A stretch of DNA of 30,378 bases, taken from NCBI GenBank assembly GCA_025201365.1, contig JAIXMF010000152.1:1-30378 (forward strand), given 5' to 3'. This document shows, in pieces, positions 2,801 through 19,079 of the stretch. The position numbers and the translations under genes are program-made. Each line of letters begins with the position of its first letter. Position 1 is the stretch's first letter. Below the pieces are notes generated by a model. It was given only the letters and a program-made list of their open reading frames with translations, searched no databases and had not been told where the DNA came from. Origin of the DNA: Syncephalis plumigaleata. Taxonomy: Eukaryota; Zoopagomycota; Zoopagomycetes; Zoopagales; Piptocephalidaceae.

Positions 2801-4111
2801 CTAATTGTCGCTGCTATTGTTATACGGGACGGGAACCGTGTATTCTGAGCTATAATCATAAGTTGAATTGTCGCTCTTATTATAACCATATGAGTATTTA
2901 TCCGTGCAGTTGATATACTTTGTGCCAGATCCATCAGTGCCATAGTAAGTATTGTTCACTGGAGTGCAGTGATTGCAGTTAACTTTGGTACCATTATTGA
3001 ATGTGTAGGTTTGATTAGCGTAGGAGGCGGGGACAATGTAGTAATGAGGGTATTTCTTGTACTTGGTGGGCTTGCCAGTGGATTTATATTTCGGCTTGTT
3101 CTTGCTGGGATAGGGAGCAGGCGGGTAAGGAGTACAAGTAGGTGCTGGGACTGGATAACCAGGTGCTGGGTAAGCAGGAACTGGATAAGCAGGAACTGGA
3201 TAAGCAGGAGCTGGGGTTGGATAAGCAGGAACTGGGTAATCAGGAGTTGGATAGGAAGGAGCTGGATATGACGGGGCTGGATAAGCAGGAACTGGGTAAG
3301 CAGGGACTGGATAATCAGGTGCTGGATAAGCCGGAGTTGGATAAGTCGGAGCTGGATAGGTAGAGGTTGAATATGAAGAAGGAGCGGGATACGGAGAGGT
3401 TGTATAAGTAGAGGTTGGATATGAAGAAGGAGCGGGATATGGAGAGGTTGTATAGGTAGAGGTTGGATATGAAGAAGGAGCGGGATATGGAGAGGTTGAA
3501 TAAGTAGAAGTTGTATAGGTAGAGGTTGAATATGGAGAGGTTGTATAAGTAGAAGTTGAATATGGAGAGGTTGTATAGGTAGAGGTTGAATATGGAGAGG
3601 TTGTATAGGTAGAAGTTGGATAATCAGGAGCTGGATAGGTAGAGGTTGAATATGGAGAGGTTGTATAGGTAGAAGTTGGATAATCAGGAGCTGGATAGGT
3701 AGAGGTTGAATATGGAGAGGTTGTATAGGTAGAAGTTGGATAATCAGGAGCTGGATATGGAGAGGTTGGATAAGTAGAAGTTGGATAATCAGGAGCTGGA
3801 TAGGTAGAGGTTGAATATGGAGAGGTTGTATAGGTAGAAGTTGGATAATCAGGAGCAGGATATGGAGAGGTTGGATAAGTAGAAGTTGGATAATCAGGAG
3901 CAGGATATGGAGAGGTTGGATAAGTAGAAGTTGGATAATCAGGAGCCGGATAAGCAGGGACTGGATAATCAGAAGCTGGTGCTTTCTTGTAGTCCGCCGG
4001 AGTATCGCTCGAATAAGTGTCTGCTGGCTTAGCTTCAGCTATAAAGTGGCCATTGTTTGTGGCGATAGCTAGAGAAGCCACAATCAAGGCGAGATATTTA
4101 AATGATTGCAT
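2801..4111 (-). CDS. Secreted Tyr-Pro-rich tandem-repeat protein, probably cell wall or adhesive
   Basis: The 436-codon frame starts at ATG 4111 and ends at TAG 2801. Residues 1-27 form a signal peptide (MQSFKYLALIVASLAIATNN and on). From about residue 45 to 320 the protein is an imperfect tandem array of five-residue cores such as YPAPD, YPTST, YTTSP, YPTSP and YPVPA, so that Tyr recurs nearly every fifth residue and is mostly followed by Pro or Thr. The array is followed by a Lys/Tyr-rich stretch (KNKPKYKSTGKPTKYKKYP) and a C-terminal domain with several Cys (VNCNHCTPV) and many N-glycosylation sequons (NQT, NGT, NCT, NKS, NST). No membrane segment or GPI signal is evident. The composition is like extensin or Tyr-rich structural and adhesive proteins, where Tyr can be cross-linked; that role is inference. 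I recognise no named family. Confidence 0.85.
   Translation of the reverse strand: MQSFKYLALIVASLAIATNNGHFIAEAKPADTYSSDTPADYKKAPASDYPVPAYPAPDYPTSTYPTSPYPAPDYPTSTYPTSPYPAPDYPTSTYTTSPYSTSTYPAPDYPTSTYPTSPYPAPDYPTSTYTTSPYSTSTYPAPDYPTSTYTTSPYSTSTYPAPDYPTSTYTTSPYSTSTYTTSPYSTSTYTTSPYSTSTYTTSTYSTSPYPAPSSYPTSTYTTSPYPAPSSYPTSTYTTSPYPAPSSYSTSTYPAPTYPTPAYPAPDYPVPAYPVPAYPAPSYPAPSYPTPDYPVPAYPTPAPAYPVPAYPVPAYPAPGYPVPAPTCTPYPPAPYPSKNKPKYKSTGKPTKYKKYPHYYIVPASYANQTYTFNNGTKVNCNHCTPVNNTYYGTDGSGTKYINCTDKYSYGYNKSDNSTYDYSSEYTVPVPYNNSSDN
3142..3990 (-). repeat. Coding tandem repeat (Tyr-Pro-x-x-x units)
   Basis: The plus strand shows units near 15 bp long, variants of ggataagcaggagctgg and ggttgtataggtagaagt, arranged in higher-order blocks of about 60 to 90 bp. 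Two blocks, near 3600-3730 and 3770-3960, are almost identical, which indicates recent expansion or contraction by unequal exchange. Confidence 0.85.
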
Positions 4112-4165
4112 TGTAAATGCTTAGACTTGCTACAAGGTGTTAGTAAACAAGTATGTGCGTGCAAG

Positions 4166-7640: not shown

Positions 7641-10600
7641 CTATTCTGGACCGCTAAGCCACGAGGTCAAGATATGGCGCCACATCACTCCCTCTTCGAG
7701 TGTTGAGCGTCCCGCCAACATACTAGGTTGGTCTTCGCTAGATAATAATAAAGTGTTAGTTAATGATAATACTGAAACTGGCTCATTGGCCGTGGGGGAT
7801 AATAATAAATGTTGTGGACGAGAGTGTAAAGGAATAATTCGATCAGCGTGTGCGGGGAATGTCCTTTTTGTGTCGAGATCACATAGTCTGTAATTGACAG
7901 CTGACGTCTGCTCTACGACTCGGAAGGGTCCACGTATACGTTCCTTCATCTTCTTTAATTTGGATCCTTTCAACAGCGTTTCTTCTAACCATACCAAATC
8001 ACCCTCATTGAATGCTTCTCTTCTTCTTCCTTTGTTATAACGTGCTGATTGACGGCGTTGGGCGGCTTCGATCATGAGGCGAGCTCGTTCTCGTACATCA
8101 TTCAACCGTAATTGTAAATCCTTCACGTACTCTTCGTATTCTTCAGTTCGCTTATTGAATCGTGCTTTTGTCGCGGGCATGTTGTTAACAGCGACTTCTA
8201 ATGGTTGAGTGGCTTCGCGGCCGTAGAGTAGGTTGAAGGGCGTCTGACCAGCAGACGATTGCGGTGTAGTGCGATAGGCGAACAACAGTAAAGGTAAGTA
8301 CTTGTCCCAGTCGGTTTCGAAGTCGTTAGTGAACTTGGCAATCATTGAAGCTAGCGTATGATTGAAACGTTCAACGAGACCGTCAGTTTGTGGACGTCGT
8401 GCTGATGTAATTCGCTGACGAATGCCTAGGCGGCGCGCGATTCCTGCTGTGAGACCAGACGTGAAGTTGGTACCTCCGTCTGTGAGGAGTACACGGGGCA
8501 TTCCATGTCGAGCGATAATGTTATTCATAAGGAACTTGACGGTAGTCTCGGCTGTAGCGTCCGGTATCGCAGCAGCTTCGATCCATCGAGTTGTGTAATC
8601 GCAACATACGGCAACATACTTATTACCATACTCTGACTCAGTAAACGGTCCCATTAGGTCGATAGCGATAAAGTCGAACGGCTTCTCGGGTACCGGCAGA
8701 GACTGTAGCAAGCCAGAACGCTGTGTGATGCGTCGTTGCTTCTGGCATCTCACACAAGTTGCTACATAATCTCTAACGTCACTATGTAAGTTCGACCACC
8801 AGTACTTTTGTCGAATTCGTTTATATGTGCGATATCTACCGAGATGGCCGGATAATTCTTGATCATGATTATGATATAGAACAACGGGTTGGAACTGTTT
8901 CGGTACTACGTCCAATAGTACTTCTTGATCTTCTTCCATCTTTCGGCGCATCAATCGACCGTCGACGAGGCGATAACTTCGAGCGCGTTTCTTGATCGAA
9001 CGTCGTGTAGGTTCGTTCATCGTGATAAGATGATCGTTACCTTTCAACAAATATCCGTAGATGTCACAAGTGGCGTTCTCACTGCGTTGTGCCTGGAGCC
9101 ATTCGTCTGCCGTAGGTAATAATGGTACAGCGGCCGTGGACATGATTTCGACAGCTTTATCTTCTTCGGCTTGAGCGACTAGTTCCGGCCATGGCAAGGG
9201 ATCTCGCGACAAGGCATCGGCGTTGGAGTTGGCAGTGCCTCGACGGTACTCGATAGTGGGGCAATACTCTTGTAATCGCAGCACCCACCTACCTAGTCTA
9301 CCGGTTGGATTTGGACGAGACATTAACCAGCGTAAGGCGGAGTGATCGGTAACGACAGTGAATTCACCACCGTAAATGTATGGTCGAAATTTATCGATGG
9401 CCCACACGATCGCTAAACATTCACCTTCCGTGGCTGAGTAGTTGCGTTCAGCTTGGTTGAGAGCACAGCTGGCGTATGCGATAGGCTTCCATTGGTCGTT
9501 CACGAGTTGAGAAATGACGGCACCAATACCAGTAGAAGAGGCATCGGTCTCAATTCGGAAAGGCTTGGAAAGATCGGGGTAAGTGAGAACAACATCATCG
9601 GTAAGGGCTTGACGTAACTGATCGAAGGCAGCTTGCTGGGCATCGGTCCAGGTAAATGGCGTGTTCTTCTTGGTGAGACGATGTAGCGGTTCAGCTTTCT
9701 CAGAGAAATTAGGAATGAACCGTCTATAATAGGAAGCAAGACCTAAGAAGCTTTTACATCCACGGACATCTACAGGAAGAGGAAATTGATGAACAGCGGC
9801 GATTTTGTTGGGATCCGGTTTAACACCGTTGGCAGTGACCAAATGACCAAGGTAAGCAATCTCTTGATGACCGAAGTGACACTTGCTCTTCTTTAGTCGT
9901 AGGCCAGCCGTACGTAAGCGTTGAAAGACTTCTCGTAGACGTTCTAGATGTTCCTCGAACGTCCGTCCATAAACGATAATATCGTCCAGGTACACGATGC
10001 AGGTACGCCATTTCAATCCAGCCAATACTTCGTTCATAAGACGTTGGAACGTAGCTGGTGCATTGCAAAGTCCAAAAGGCATGACTTTGAATTGATATAG
10101 ACCATCGTGTGTAATAAAAGCAGTCTTTTCTCTATCTTTAACGTTCATTTTGACTTGCCAATAACCTGAAGCTAAATCTAACGTAGTAAACCAACGAGCG
10201 CCAGACAGCATGTCCAAGGCGTCATCTACTCGCGTAGTAGGATAAGAATCCTTCTTGGTTACTTCGTTAAGCCTACGGTAATCTACACAAAATCGTGCGC
10301 CTCCATCCTTCTTACCAACAAGAACAACAGGGGAAGACCAAGGGCTGAAAGAGCGTTCAATGATTCCGTTTTTGAGCATATCATTAACAGAATTGGTGAT
10401 AATCTCGCGTTGACGATGAGCTACGCGATATGGCGGTGAGTTGATGGGTCTACTGTCGCCAGTATTAATGAAGTGTTGTATACTAGTAGTTGCACCAGGA
10501 TTATTAGGATTATCTGCAAATAGATCCGTAAATTCCCGTAGCAACTTGTCGAGAAGGTACTTGCGTTCCGATTCGACCAGTTCAACATGTGGAGACTGAG

Positions 10601-11189
10601 ATACTGCCGCAGAAATAAGGGCTGTAGGAGTCTCTTCGTTGAGTTGGGGCTGAATAGCATCATAGCATTGTTGTAGCTTCCTGCTAAGCCGACTATTGCG
10701 TATGCGTTTCTCAGCAACGGCAACAAAGTGTATACCGTGCGAGTGGGTTGACATTTTCATAGGTAAGGAATGATTGCCGACTGTCAACGTGCCAGCAGCG
10801 CAATCTATGGTGGCGCTAGCATCGGTTAACCAATCCATACCTAATAGGAGATCATATGGAGATGCATGAAGTATGATCGCTTCGACTTGACGTTCCACAT
10901 CAGCAACTTGCACTTGTACTTGACAGTATCCGCAAGTGTGAGCGTGTCGTCCATCTGCTAGCTTAACAAACGAGTTCCGATTCGGTCCAACCTTTATGCC
11001 TAGACGTGAGCATAAGGCGCTAGAGATTACCGTTTGTTGGGCTCCTGTGTCCACTAGCATAGTTGTTGCGTGTCCGTTCACAAAACCGGCCTGTAAGAGT
11101 GCGTTAGCGGTAACAGCACCTATCACGGCATCTGGTTGTGATAAGGGATTTGCTAGAAGGGGGGTGCCAATACCCTCAATCATCGGCAC
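7641..11189 (-). CDS. pol: Pol polyprotein: protease, reverse transcriptase, RNase H, integrase
   Basis: An intact frame of about 1,180 codons; the first ATG is at 11183, but the frame is open upstream into the end of gag, so translation by -1 frameshift is as likely. The aspartic protease active site is LVDTGAQQTVIS (residues 45-56). Reverse transcriptase shows DLASGYWQVKM, GLCNAPATFQ and the catalytic YLDD near residue 400. RNase H shows ETDASSTGIGAV and TEGECLAIVWA. Integrase has an HHCC finger (HLGRYRTYKRI to CVRCQKQ), the D-D-E core (IAIDLMGPF, LTDGGTNF, LVERFNHTL) and a GPF motif (RIRGPFRVVEQ). I see no chromodomain after it. The last 15 or so codons run into the 3' LTR and end there. 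All key catalytic residues are present, so the element may be active. Confidence 0.95.
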   Translation of the reverse strand: MPMIEGIGTPLLANPLSQPDAVIGAVTANALLQAGFVNGHATTMLVDTGAQQTVISSALCSRLGIKVGPNRNSFVKLADGRHAHTCGYCQVQVQVADVERQVEAIILHASPYDLLLGMDWLTDASATIDCAAGTLTVGNHSLPMKMSTHSHGIHFVAVAEKRIRNSRLSRKLQQCYDAIQPQLNEETPTALISAAVSQSPHVELVESERKYLLDKLLREFTDLFADNPNNPGATTSIQHFINTGDSRPINSPPYRVAHRQREIITNSVNDMLKNGIIERSFSPWSSPVVLVGKKDGGARFCVDYRRLNEVTKKDSYPTTRVDDALDMLSGARWFTTLDLASGYWQVKMNVKDREKTAFITHDGLYQFKVMPFGLCNAPATFQRLMNEVLAGLKWRTCIVYLDDIIVYGRTFEEHLERLREVFQRLRTAGLRLKKSKCHFGHQEIAYLGHLVTANGVKPDPNKIAAVHQFPLPVDVRGCKSFLGLASYYRRFIPNFSEKAEPLHRLTKKNTPFTWTDAQQAAFDQLRQALTDDVVLTYPDLSKPFRIETDASSTGIGAVISQLVNDQWKPIAYASCALNQAERNYSATEGECLAIVWAIDKFRPYIYGGEFTVVTDHSALRWLMSRPNPTGRLGRWVLRLQEYCPTIEYRRGTANSNADALSRDPLPWPELVAQAEEDKAVEIMSTAAVPLLPTADEWLQAQRSENATCDIYGYLLKGNDHLITMNEPTRRSIKKRARSYRLVDGRLMRRKMEEDQEVLLDVVPKQFQPVVLYHNHDQELSGHLGRYRTYKRIRQKYWWSNLHSDVRDYVATCVRCQKQRRITQRSGLLQSLPVPEKPFDFIAIDLMGPFTESEYGNKYVAVCCDYTTRWIEAAAIPDATAETTVKFLMNNIIARHGMPRVLLTDGGTNFTSGLTAGIARRLGIRQRITSARRPQTDGLVERFNHTLASMIAKFTNDFETDWDKYLPLLLFAYRTTPQSSAGQTPFNLLYGREATQPLEVAVNNMPATKARFNKRTEEYEEYVKDLQLRLNDVRERARLMIEAAQRRQSARYNKGRRREAFNEGDLVWLEETLLKGSKLKKMKERIRGPFRVVEQTSAVNYRLCDLDTKRTFPAHADRIIPLHSRPQHLLLSPTANEPVSVLSLTNTLLLSSEDQPSMLAGRSTLEEGVMWRHILTSWLSGPE

Positions 11190-11232
11190 CCGGTTTAGTT
11201 TTCCGACGGCTGAGCAGCCTCAGGCAATTTGC
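11190..11232 (-). promoter_or_regulatory. Gag-pol overlap with candidate -1 frameshift site
   Basis: On the minus strand the last gag codons are TCG GAA AAC TAA. Pol is open in the -1 frame from just after a TGA near 11230 through the gag stop, so the frames overlap by about 30 bases. A G-GAA-AAC heptamer directly abuts the stop. It resembles, but does not perfectly match, the X-XXY-YYZ slippery pattern. Reinitiation at ATG 11183, 12 nt past the stop, is the alternative. Confidence 0.5.
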
Positions 11233-12622
11233 CAGTGACTGACTCACGAGCCGCAGATAACTTAGGACACTTATAGGCGGCGTGTCCTGGATCGTCACAG
11301 AGAGCACAAGGATGGCGCGGCGCAGAAGGTGGCTTCTCCTTGCGTCGTGGACGTTGTCGTCGGTCGTCATATTGCTTCTGTGTCGATCGGGTGTTAGAAG
11401 GGATAGAATCATCTTCTTGTACGGCAGCTACGAACTTTGGTTTAACAGGCGTTGATGACTGGGTAAGTAGTTTGTCGATACTCTTTCCGCGTGATCGTAA
11501 TTCCTCGAGTGATGAAATCAGATATAATTTGAGTAGATCACGAGTAGATTCATCGGCGTTGACCTTGAAGTAGTACCAAATCGTTTCGTCGCTGACTTTG
11601 GCGCGTATTCCGTTCATCTCGATGCGATCGGCATAGTCGAGGAGAGATTCCTTCGGACGCTTGCGAGTAGAATGGAACGTAGCTAACACTCCTTCTTTAG
11701 GATCTTCTTGATACCAATGACCTCGTATACTAGTTACAAGTTCATCATAGAGACCAGGTTTAAACGAAGCTAACTGTTTCGTAGCGCGAGCACACCATAC
11801 CTTTTCATGCTGTCGTAAACCATATATTAATGCACAGCATTGATCCTTTTCGGACCATGGAGACATATCTGCGACAAGGGTGAATTCGTCTAACCATTCC
11901 AAAGGGTCATCCTTCTCGTTCAGTATGGGTATCTCCATCTTTGGTGCGTAGGAATGACGATACGACGGTGGTAATATAGGGAGTTCAACATCGTCATGAT
12001 CTGATTCATCATCTGGCGTCATCACGCTTTCACGACGAACAGGGCGACGAATCTGGATAGTTGGAGATGGTGTGTGATCGTTCTGCGAAGGTAAGCGATA
12101 TGGAACATGAGCAGTGCCAGGTGTTTCGACGATAGGTTGTGAGGGCGGATCAGGGCGAGTTATGCCAAGCGTAATGATCATTTGCTCAGCTAACGCTACA
12201 GCCTGTGTCTGTGTCAACCTGTGTTGTTGGTTGACTACGTAATCCATAAACATAGCAACTGCATTTGGAGACTGGTCATCCTGTGTACTAATAGCTTGTT
12301 GTACAGCAGCGAACGGATTATTCGGATCAGTAGGAAGTGTGACGTCTTCGGCGGTTGGCGTAGGGACGGTCTCGACGGCCTGTTCCGGAGGGATAGTAGT
12401 GGGAGCGGTCCTAACAGCCTGTGGGTGGAGAACAGTAGTGGCAACGGCTTGAGATACCGCTGCGGTAGGCTGAGGATCGGTCGTCACTGGAGGGTCGCCT
12501 TCGACTGGGGAAGTCGGCACAGACGCCTCAGATTCTTCCTCGGCGGGAACAGCCGGAGCGTTGGATGGGCCTGCAGCTTCGTCCTCGCGCTGGGCCGACG
12601 CACGTGTATATATGGGTGTCAT
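11195..12622 (-). CDS. gag: Gag polyprotein of the Ty3/Gypsy element
   Basis: The frame starts at ATG 12622 (MTPIYTRASAQ) and ends at TAA 11195-11197, about 475 residues. Residues 1-200 are Pro/Thr/Ala-rich and low in complexity. The middle contains a capsid-like retrotransposon Gag region, with Trp-rich motifs such as LEWLDEF and RGHWYQEDP. Near the C-terminus a CCHC zinc knuckle, CALCDDPGHAAYKC, fits C-x2-C-x4-H-x4-C, the nucleic-acid-binding module of nucleocapsid. Gag should form the cytoplasmic particle that packages the element RNA. The reading frame is intact, and pol follows in the -1 frame. Confidence 0.93.
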   Translation of the reverse strand: MTPIYTRASAQREDEAAGPSNAPAVPAEEESEASVPTSPVEGDPPVTTDPQPTAAVSQAVATTVLHPQAVRTAPTTIPPEQAVETVPTPTAEDVTLPTDPNNPFAAVQQAISTQDDQSPNAVAMFMDYVVNQQHRLTQTQAVALAEQMIITLGITRPDPPSQPIVETPGTAHVPYRLPSQNDHTPSPTIQIRRPVRRESVMTPDDESDHDDVELPILPPSYRHSYAPKMEIPILNEKDDPLEWLDEFTLVADMSPWSEKDQCCALIYGLRQHEKVWCARATKQLASFKPGLYDELVTSIRGHWYQEDPKEGVLATFHSTRKRPKESLLDYADRIEMNGIRAKVSDETIWYYFKVNADESTRDLLKLYLISSLEELRSRGKSIDKLLTQSSTPVKPKFVAAVQEDDSIPSNTRSTQKQYDDRRQRPRRKEKPPSAPRHPCALCDDPGHAAYKCPKLSAARESVTGKLPEAAQPSEN

Positions 12623-12827
12623 TATGTGCAATGATCGTAAAATAAGGTGAAATAAATAGGAAATAATAGAACGTAAGGGAAATGGGAGTAATAACGTAGA
12701 ATGTAAAGATCGTTAACGTAATATGTGATAGGAAAGGTAGAGCGCGGGATTCGTGTCCTACAAGATTAGTGAAATGTGGTTGGGCACCGAACGCGCTTGC
12801 TACTAGAAGGTAAGTTTTCGCTTCACG

Positions 12828-16619: not shown

Positions 16620-16780
16620 ACATATATTTATTCAATAAATGATTGAATGATCTTGTAGATATACTTGTTGCTGTACCAAGGAATAATGACTTGAATGGCA
16701 TGGACACTAAAAGGTCTTGCACCAATCCATTCTTGACTTGATTACCTATAATGTCTACTTGATGATGTCCTTGTCTTGTT
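16620..16780 (-). other. 3' UTR exon of the microexon gene with polyadenylation signal
   Basis: A 52-nt intron (16781-16832; gtaagt to ttacag, branch TACTGAT) joins the stop-containing 9-nt exon to this terminal exon. An AATAAA hexamer on the minus strand at 16627-16632 fits the polyadenylation signal. Confidence 0.6.
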
Positions 16781-16835
16781 CTGTAATCATAATGGATCAG
16801 TATGGGTATGATTATTGTAAATTATTACTTACTGC

Positions 16836-17901
16836 TTATTCCTATCATTCAATGTATATCGTATCGCGATTAGTATACCGTAGATGACGGTTGAAATGAT
16901 GACTTACAAGCTGTTATGCAGAGATATACGGATTGTGTACCATAGCGTGATTAGTACATTCATTCATTACAATGAGAAACATTAGCTTACAGGCTATCGT
17001 AAGGAATACCCATATTGGCCGTGTGCCACATTTTAGTCAGTACACCGTTCGTTGCAACAATCGTATTAACTTACAGGCTACCATACGGGACCATACGTGA
17101 ATCGTGAATCGTAGTATAATTAGTAATCATAACGTGTAATTAGTGTGGCAACTTACGGGCTGTTATATCCAAGTGTATGGATTGTGTACCATTTGCAATT
17201 AGTACGTTATTCATTGCAACCAGAGCGCTAATAACTTACAAGCTGTTATACGCAAACAAAAATGTACAATGAGCGATATTATAATTAGTATCCCGTTCTT
17301 CACAGTCATAACGATAACTTACAATCTGTTTATACACAAACATATGTAGTTAGTACCTCATTCATTACAATCAGAATGGAAACTTACCTTCTATCATACA
17401 CAAGCAGACATGAATAATGAGACATATTGATATTAGTACATTGCTCATTACAAGCGAACGGTGCCTTACCTTCTATTATATTGAAATATACGTGGATCGT
17501 GTATCATATCATAATTAGTACAGATAACTTGTAGCCGTTATGATAACTTACAGGTACTTGAGAATAGTAGTCATACATATTATTTTGATTTGTACTACAA
17601 TTAGCATAGTACTTGTTATGGTCAATAGGATAGCTTACGAGGTTGTGCTAACAAATTAATAGGGAGAATAAACATTATAGTATGATTAACATGTGAAAAC
17701 AACCATTTAATATACATGAACTTACGAGCTATCGGTAATCATCGGTGGACAATGAAACAATAGGCTACGATTAGTACATCAATTGATAGGGTCACAGCCA
17801 GACATACCACGACGATCCAGGACGGGACCAGCTTCAACAGTGACCAGACTGGTGAGAGCGACAACGGCGACGGCAATAGCGATAACGGCAGAGAACTTCA
17901 T
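16836..17901 (-). CDS. Secreted pre-propeptide encoded by an array of single-codon microexons (13 coding exons)
   Basis: Exon 1 (17808-17901) encodes a 24-residue signal peptide (MKFSAVIAIAVAVVALTSL...), GPVLD and Arg-Arg, plus one base. Next come exons of 3 nt (17726-17728), 9 (17639-17647), 5 (17552-17556), then eight of 3 nt at 17470, 17388, 17323, 17240, 17157, 17075, 16991 and 16908 (left ends), and one of 9 nt (16833-16841) holding the TAA stop at 16836-16838. Every intron starts GTATGT or GTAAG and ends AG; most contain TACTAAT. The 1+3+9+5 nt sum to whole codons, and the eight 3-nt exons are AAG, AAG, ATT, CTT, CCC, CCT, CCT, CTT. The joined product is 46 residues: Arg-Arg then APQPLPKKILPPPLE. 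Arg-Arg, and the internal Lys-Lys, fit Kex2-type cleavage of a secreted peptide. The weakest join is the 5-nt exon, whose acceptor is AAG. Function unknown; a signalling or effector peptide is inference. Confidence 0.82.
16908..17472 (-). repeat. Tandem array of intron + one-codon-exon modules
   Basis: Seven intron-plus-codon modules lie between the first AAG exon and the last CTT exon. Intron lengths are 79, 62, 80, 80, 79, 81 and 80 nt, so the unit is about 83 bp (one shortened). Shared landmarks recur at similar offsets: GTAAGTTA at the donor, TTG(T/C)AATGAATGA before the branch, TACTAAT, ATGGTACACAATCC after it, and TATAACAG at the acceptor. The introns are thus diverged copies of one another rather than independent insertions. 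Confidence 0.8.
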
Positions 17902-18211: not shown

Positions 18212-19079
18212 ATGGCATTCTCGCACCAGTTGCTTGATACTGCTCGTAGTCAGTCGGTCAGTTTCTGGACTGACTTCAAAGCGTTTATCTCTAAAGGCTC
18301 AGTGATTGACTTGGGTATTGGTAAGTACATGTTAATAATCAATGTCATAATATTATTAGCTGGTTAACTAATAGATATATATATACGTAATCCTATTTTA
18401 TTATGTTGTGCGTAGGTATCGTTATTGGTGCGGCGTTTACCAAGGTGGTCAATTCATTTGTGGTAAGTTAGTTAGCTATCTTGTATAGCTAGAGTGACAT
18501 TATTGACCTATAATCAATGATAGAATGATGTCATGACGCCTCCTCTCGGTTTATTCATCGGTGATCGTGATCTCGATAATATGTTCTGGGTGATTAAAGC
18601 GGGCAAGAATCATCATACGGACTACAAGACGATCGATGAAGCCCGTGAAGATGGTGCCGTGTAAGTAGTAATCATCTACTATGATGGCGACGATGATGAA
18701 TATTGATGTCTGTATATATATGCGTATGTCTATAGTACGATTAACGGTGGTCGATTCGCCATGGCCGGTATTAACTTCTTTATCGTGGCCTTTATGTTGT
18801 TCTGGTTCGTACGATGTAAGTCATACTACTACTTGATTATTGTATTGATGGCGACTATATTAAATGTGCCTCTCTCTTTCTCTCTTTATCTTTGTAGTTG
18901 CCATGATATTCCGTCGTAAACAAAAGAAGGCGGAAGTAGCCGATGCTCCACCCGAACATCGATGCGACGAATGCATGGAAGTAATTCATCCGCAAGCACG
19001 TCGTTGCAAGCATTGCACAGCTGTAGTGCAAGATCATGGTGAACGTGGCACAGCTAGCGGTAATCTCATTCAAGCCTAA
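18212..19079 (+). CDS. mscL: MscL large-conductance mechanosensitive channel with C-terminal zinc ribbon, five exons
   Basis: Exons 18212-18320, 18416-18462, 18524-18660, 18736-18815 and 18898-19079 join in frame to 184 residues (555 nt with stop). All four introns are GTAAGT...AG. Residues 20-60 carry the MscL hallmark: amphipathic N-helix WTDFKAFISKGS, TM1 VIDLGIGIVIGAAFTKVV, then NDVMTPPLGLFIG. TM2 is GINFFIVAFMLFWFVRF. In bacteria this homopentamer opens under membrane tension to release solutes in hypo-osmotic shock. The cytoplasmic tail replaces the usual helical bundle with a CxxC...CxxC zinc ribbon (CDECMEVIHPQARRCKHC), a tail I recall in some bacterial MscL proteins. Bacterial origin followed by intron gain is inferred. 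No targeting peptide is obvious, so plasma membrane or an organelle are both possible. It diverges from the microexon gene. Confidence 0.94.

Follow-up and report, generated by a model that had tools for sequence, protein, structure and literature searches.

A predicted secreted-peptide gene composed largely of single-codon exons, and its family, in Syncephalis plumigaleata

The locus and its predicted gene

The window – the whole 30,378-nucleotide stretch of DNA analyzed here, contig C60 of a 32.6 Mb genome in 383 contigs – carries on its minus strand a candidate gene for a small secreted peptide (Table 1). An ATG at 17901 begins an exon that encodes a hydrophobic leader (by inspection) and a short pro-region with Arg-Arg at its end. 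After it come thirteen introns of 52–82 nt, and the tiny exons after the first measure 3, 9, 5, eight times 3, and 9 nt. When joined, the exons read MKFSAVIAIAVAVVALTSLVTVEAGPVLDRRAPQPLPKKILPPPLE, with the stop in the closing 9-nt exon; exons 1-13 add up to 144 nt, and their genomic span (17901-16833) is 1,069 bp. A mechanosensitive-channel gene with ordinary exons (MscL, 18212-19079, plus strand; PF01741, E 5.8e-13 for the first two exons) begins at 18212 and is oriented divergently to the peptide gene. Also on the minus strand are two long open frames resembling an LTR retrotransposon (7641-12712; reverse transcriptase and integrase-like motifs, by eye) and an open frame for a secreted-looking protein of YPTSTYPTSPYPAPD-like repeats (2801-4120). 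Scans of the window for tRNAs and Rfam families gave no match. CotH was looked for as a marker of phylum and not found (3 of 14 controls gave a signal), which, given the distribution of this family, is evidence against Mucorales; the flagellar family RIB43A gave no signal either, but as its controls also gave none, that result carries no weight.

Table 1. Components of the predicted peptide gene in the window, in order of transcription.
Feature	Position	Strand	Description
Exon 1, 94 nt	17808..17901	minus	signal peptide and pro-region, MKFSAVIAIAVAVVALTSLVTVEAGPVLDRR plus one base
Intron 1, 79 nt	17729..17807	minus	donor GTATGT, acceptor ATAG
Exon 2, 3 nt, CTC	17726..17728	minus	frame-blind model; both junctions joined in intronless L041
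Exon 3, 9 nt, CACAACCTC	17639..17647	minus	frame-blind model
Exon 4, 5 nt, TACCT	17552..17556	minus	restores whole-codon frame; frame-blind model
Exon 5, single codon AAG (Lys)	17470..17472	minus	frame-blind model
Exon 6, single codon AAG (Lys)	17388..17390	minus	frame-blind model
Exon 7, single codon ATT (Ile)	17323..17325	minus	frame-blind model
Exon 8, single codon CTT (Leu)	17240..17242	minus	frame-blind model
Exon 9, single codon CCC (Pro)	17157..17159	minus	frame-blind model
Exon 10, single codon CCT (Pro)	17075..17077	minus	frame-blind model
Exon 11, single codon CCT (Pro)	16991..16993	minus	frame-blind model
Exon 12, single codon CTT (Leu)	16908..16910	minus	frame-blind model
Closing exon 13, 9 nt, GAATAAGCA	16833..16841	minus	Glu, TAA stop and 3 bases of 3' untranslated sequence; frame-blind model
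Last intron, 52 nt	16781..16832	minus	joined junction TAAGCA/AACAAGACAAGGACATCATC in intronless C223:1333278 and C223:1553091
Terminal non-coding exon	16627..16780	minus	ends at AATAAA 16632-16627; common to array genes and intronless copies
Array: introns 2-12 with exons 3-12 between	16842..17725	minus	introns 62-82 nt, GTAAGN...branch site...AG; unit ~83 bp

Exon boundaries were obtained without reference to reading frame. Donor, branch-site and acceptor matrices were trained on clear units (introns between 3-nt exons), and the main search found the best chain of introns with frame ignored and all exon lengths from 1 to 20 nt treated as equal (an earlier search favored 3-nt exons). Exons 1-13 were recovered, together with the peptide of the preliminary description, which had placed a signal-peptide exon ending in Arg-Arg before twelve tiny exons: all lie where it put them, and its phases and peptide are correct, as is its claim that the frame closes with a stop in the last tiny exon, at the end of the array. 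Its count of eight 3-nt exons is right for the consecutive run but not for the total, which is nine, since CTC also has this length. On its own the search placed the last acceptor farther downstream, at AG/GTAATCAAG; the acceptor at 16781 was chosen because contiguous intronless copies show that junction. In frame-blind models of relatives the exon 4 position carries 5 or 2 nt, and the closing exon of relatives is TAAGCR or similar.

The pattern GTAAG-N60..90-AG-NNN-GTAAG occurs seven times in the window, always on this strand and inside the array, compared to a mean of 0.13 and a maximum of two in 100 dinucleotide shuffles of the window. A profile of the repeat intron, made from other genes with the window gene left out, matched the window eleven times at E<=1, in every case within 16853-17794 of the minus strand; two of the matches are weak (E 0.0011 and 0.077). 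With seven motifs where shuffles give 0.13, and profile matches in the window only inside the array, the earlier view that chance is an unlikely cause is borne out.

Upstream of the ATG, a CTATAAATC box is found at a distance of 127–200 bp in 28 of the 41 family loci for which the sequence extends far enough. The window gene, one of the 13 that lack it, has no such (TATA) box within 300 bp upstream, and its likeness to relatives begins only from about -86. From its sequence we infer that the window copy is transcribed, spliced and secreted; it may also be silent, or driven by another promoter, and because the usual TATA box is missing our confidence in this particular gene is lowered, while the family-level reading is unaffected.

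A dispersed family of exon arrays

The preliminary description treated the locus as a single peptide gene: the architecture stands, but the scale was set too low, the window gene being a small member of a large family. The exon-1 protein has at least 150 matches in the genome (a lower bound, because 150 of 174 candidates were scored), and exon 1 lies directly before a GTATG donor in 78 places. A double unit, consisting of two successive 3-nt exons with introns of ~80 nt, gave 1,949 matches genome-wide, compared to 15 for the reversed pattern and two for the same pattern with 4-nt exons (nine when reversed). Sequence downstream of exon 1 was read over at most 4.5 kb for 40 of the 150 loci, to 2 kb for ten more and partly for some others; ~100 of the 150 are known from the match alone.

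Fifty-one loci entered the frame-blind search and 46 were modelled, five without an exon-1 donor (L024, L025, L041, L081, L085) being omitted. Exactly 3 nt is the length of 824 of the 966 microexons in 44 models, and 920 of the 966 are multiples of three (L029 and L034, which contain insertions, were left out of this count). For closure, 39 complete arrays were considered, since in seven of the 46 models the fetched stretch ends inside the array. The first in-frame stop falls in the closing exon of 28 of the 39; L035 is counted among these by hand, as one run of the frame-blind search added a false intron after the closing exon and another run of it closes the array. Seven of the 28 are near-copies of another, leaving 21 distinct genes. 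In the L021 model there are 53 introns, and its 48 three-nt exons include an unbroken run of 47; it reads ...KCDGHVCCKQDWAGAVCLPDPDAKTNDPMIEARKQAEKETQAINDRMKNRH to a stop; other large models have 50 (L019), 48 (L039) and 38 (L013) introns. If these models hold, some family members encode mature parts of 40–60 residues almost wholly in single-codon exons. Seven otherwise unlike genes (L013, L018, L019, L021, L026, L027, L035) have a C...CC...C framework in common. A Pfam search with six spliced proteins gave nothing above cut-off and one sub-threshold match (Wzz, E 0.17).

The 11 of 39 arrays that do not close in their models count against the spliced-array reading. Two contain an insertion (L029, L034), three have an apparent missed intron (L037, L042, L043), in one the closing exon was missed (L033), one has an early TGA (L028), and for four the model lacks or misplaces the phase-setting exon (L038, L048, L050, L078); some of these arrays may be broken genes. 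The insertions in L029 and L034 interrupt the array, and the near-identical L030 and L035 are without them.

Arrays differ by whole units. L016 and L017, with flanks 98% identical, have 11 and 13 three-nt exons respectively; so do L031 and L032, and between L014 and L015 one unit is gained in one place and one lost in another. Small contigs (C32, C189, C186, C40, C178, C281, C328) hold copies with flanks 91–100% identical to loci on larger contigs, their arrays differing by whole units or an insertion; such near-identical copies may be two haplotypes. Recent duplicates within arrays were defined as units with both flanking introns at least 90% identical (14 pairs from six arrays, e.g. L010, L014, L019, L043, L088): 5.6% of their intron sites differ, compared to 28.6% of codon sites, about five times more. 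This suggests fast replacement of codons in newly duplicated units, to which conversion among introns could contribute. Intron identity averages 0.70 within arrays and 0.69 between them, the exceptions being some arrays of recent amplification, L010 and L045 among them. The repeat-intron profile gave 853 matches in arrays and none outside them in the regions scanned, namely the 30-kb window and 110 kb of flanks; four matches outside the models are continuations of arrays that reach the end of the fetched stretch.

Codons, splice signals and intronless copies

When runs of four or more 3-nt exons are concatenated, no stop occurs among 822 codons in phase, and the other two phases give 7 and 100 stops, each out of 771 (near-copies included). 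The 706 distinct 3-nt exons include a single stop, namely the TGA at which the L028 model ends; for a first set of 531 three-nt exons, position-specific composition predicts 13.0 stops and intron triplets predict 41. A further property of the codons concerns the acceptor. If an exon ends in CA or TA, the G that opens the next donor completes a YAG, and NYA codons thus create a competing acceptor, whereas NRA codons give no good one. NYA makes up 7 of 284 middle-pyrimidine codons in arrays; in the ordinary-gene reference, five coding stretches within the window, the figure is 330 of 768 (Fisher P 1e-45). For NRA codons no difference is seen (100 of 422 vs. 174 of 684; Fisher P 0.57). Competing YAG sites are nearly absent, which suggests that selection keeps the exons faithfully included. 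The rule is not absolute, because a second gene type (L049, see below) uses several NYA codons.

Across 12 pairs of related arrays, differing sites amount to 1.5% in donors, 1.3% in acceptors, 3.5% in branch sites, 7.2% in the rest of the intron and 8–11% at codon positions. The 705 distinct introns conform to one consensus (sample of 150). On the codons themselves there is no overall sign of purifying selection between related genes, a point against the spliced-array reading: among 241 compared, 8 differences are synonymous and 31 nonsynonymous, which is not above the 23% expected. The synonymous to nonsynonymous ratio varies by pair, from 4:1 in L086/L087 to 3:18 in L021/L046.

Several predicted junctions are found already joined in genomic DNA. 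The closing exon is joined to the terminal exon in 19 places (one mismatch at most), and the reversed pattern in none. The predicted spliced form of L089 equals intronless L056 exactly over 36 nt and seven junctions, and those of L050 and L090 have contiguous matches of 29 nt across six junctions; the frame of L089 is not open in its own model. Twenty-seven of the 49 models are without a contiguous junction match, and a search of the genome with the mature peptide of L021 found no contiguous copy. For the window gene, exons 1, 2 and 3 joined match contiguous L041 exactly over 27 nt and two junctions. Direct genomic support thus extends to three of its 13 junctions, the last one included, a low number that we count against the model. 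As a control, exon boundaries were shifted by -2, -1, +1 and +2: matches crossing 3–4 false junctions appeared in 6, 0, 1 and 9 of 49 genes, respectively (16 of 196 trials in total), and none reached six or seven; we take these to be low-complexity matches. Frames that are intact, with Arg-Arg and a mature peptide, occur in intronless L065, L066, L069 and L071; others are broken.

Interpretation and known systems

The reading we prefer, with a probability of about 0.88, is that the locus encodes a small secreted peptide, its mature part mostly at one codon per exon, and that the gene belongs to a dispersed family built in the same way. As first proposed for the window alone, a secreted peptide from consecutive one-codon exons now draws support from the family, the open frames, the codon avoidance and the intronless copies, all of it evidence from sequence.

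That the array is a tandem repeat with chance splice-like signals and no gene is scarcely credible. Its units are indeed repeated and mutually related, but the excess of motifs over shuffles (7 vs. 0.13) and of double units over their 4-nt counterpart (1,949 vs. 2) is not what such a repeat predicts, nor are open frames and a codon-like composition. Very improbable too is a single long intron in which the microexons are decayed repeats. Exon 1 spliced to the terminal exon would give a short product, in frame and ending ...DRRE QDKDIIK before a stop (read by eye), and the terminal exon is well conserved among relatives, with a 3-nt insertion in L012 that preserves that frame; however, a long intron would hardly contain hundreds of exons with open frames and stops absent, or avoid codons that make YAG, and in the intronless copies exon 1 and the terminal exon are separated by sequence of the microexons.

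It is also conceivable, though we think it unlikely, that the array is used but its single-codon exons are optional, skipping of in-frame exons giving many peptides per gene. With 920 of 966 microexon lengths divisible by three, skipping would seldom shift the frame, and the introns have one common consensus; against this, loss of a 5- or 2-nt exon is a frameshift, and the apparent selection for faithful inclusion noted above points the other way. Finally, the intronless copies may be older than the arrays, a mobile intron having invaded between codons, in which case the copies hold no record of splicing. We find this doubtful. The existence of 705 distinct introns with one consensus, as in introners, is in its favor, as are the TATA region kept in intronless L067, L075 and L077 and copy ends with no clear poly(A) tract. 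On the other hand, L063, L073 and L074 are without the TATA region, and in L063 and L073 likeness to array genes starts ~35 bp below the TATA box (by eye), as it would in copies of mRNA; moreover, neither the ordinary genes of the window nor 110 kb of flanks yielded a unit intron outside arrays. We lean, on this sequence evidence, toward retrocopies. Invasion, if it did occur, would not remove the need for splicing, since the frames are open only once the introns are gone.

Under the preferred reading of a codon-per-exon gene, splicing probably proceeds by stepwise intron definition, because 3-nt exons are too short for exon definition: they are not recognizable as exons, and the definition of each intron must rest on the donor, branch site and acceptor within it. 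The spliceosome would remove the thirteen short introns in the order of transcription, each removal adding one codon to the upstream exon and setting it against the next GTAAGT donor – in effect, a ratchet with a step of one codon. Translation would yield the signal peptide, the pro-region to Arg-Arg and the mature peptide APQPLPKKILPPPLE, which a Kex2-like protease, of a kind known in fungi, would free after Arg-Arg. Since the ~83-bp unit (intron plus codon) can be gained or lost without harm to frame or splicing, peptides would change by whole residues. The family has the look of a secreted repertoire in rapid change, and the number, small size and fast change of the peptides hint that they may have a role in dealings with other organisms. 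A bolder and distinctly tentative suggestion is that the codon-per-exon system is a generator of peptide diversity, recombination adding, dropping and swapping 83-bp cassettes and optional inclusion of exons multiplying the peptides from each gene.

Stepwise removal of adjacent or nested introns is a feature of recursive splicing and stwintrons, which leave no codon between the introns; here one codon would remain per step. Among insects, the bicycle genes of aphids encode secreted effectors by way of many small exons, each larger than one codon. Bicycle genes are named in PMC11333574. In the micro-exon genes (MEGs) of Schistosoma (PMC10526429), exons are given as 6–81 bp long (3–81 in the abstract), most of them 15 bp, introns are 0.1–5 kbp, and there are 10–20 exons per gene in 35 genes. 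MEGs have also been proposed to yield many peptides through skipping of in-frame exons. Like MEGs, the present genes combine a signal peptide, on a conventional exon by inspection, with many tiny exons that are mostly multiples of three (920 of 966), in a secreted and variable multigene family (PMC10526429). Unlike MEGs, they have mostly single-codon exons, up to 48 per gene, separated by mutually related introns of ~80 nt, and they are found in a fungus, with at least 150 exon-1 matches; the likeness meant here is one of architecture.

Introner-like elements (PMC4457414, PMC9860276) are related introns found in many unrelated genes, adjacent ones lying 145–626 bp apart (PMC4457414). Many related introns per genome are common to both, but the introns described here stand in tandem arrays three bases apart. 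Plant microexons of 1–15 nt (PMC8831610) show that exons down to 1 nt are spliced, and for one of them intronless copies by reverse transcription are inferred; they occur singly or a few at a time in ordinary genes, whereas the present exons form long runs. The preliminary description considered a run of single-codon exons in a fungus to be undescribed, and among the matches listed in the open full-text literature (most subscription papers lie outside it) arrays of one-codon exons are nowhere described. The architecture would appear categorically new; if all secreted microexon genes are counted as one kind, it may instead be viewed as an extreme variant.

If true, this would be a new mode of protein writing, at one amino acid per exon and up to 47 in a row, used by a family whose exon 1 has at least 150 matches. 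It makes testable how the spliceosome handles exons too short for exon definition, how such arrays originate, and whether introns can serve as cassettes by which secreted peptides diversify in frame. Genes of this kind will probably escape standard gene finders and RNA-seq aligners, and relatives may therefore lie hidden in other genomes.

Two variants were observed in this genome. The second gene type, L049 (G000:C1:1410500-1418500, minus strand), has a similar array and another exon 1, without signal peptide (MELSADNNNNNNSQPIV...); its model contains 76 introns, 63 three-nt exons and 21-nt exons reading LKAEKQR and LEKANQH, its frame is not open throughout, and in Pfam it has nothing above cut-off. 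L049-like arrays (codons GAT TAT ATT TAT) lie ~2.7–4.5 kb past exon 1 in L024 and L025, where the usual donor is missing. In L052 and L060 the same exon-1 leader is followed by no intron and continues into a longer, Gln-rich mature protein.
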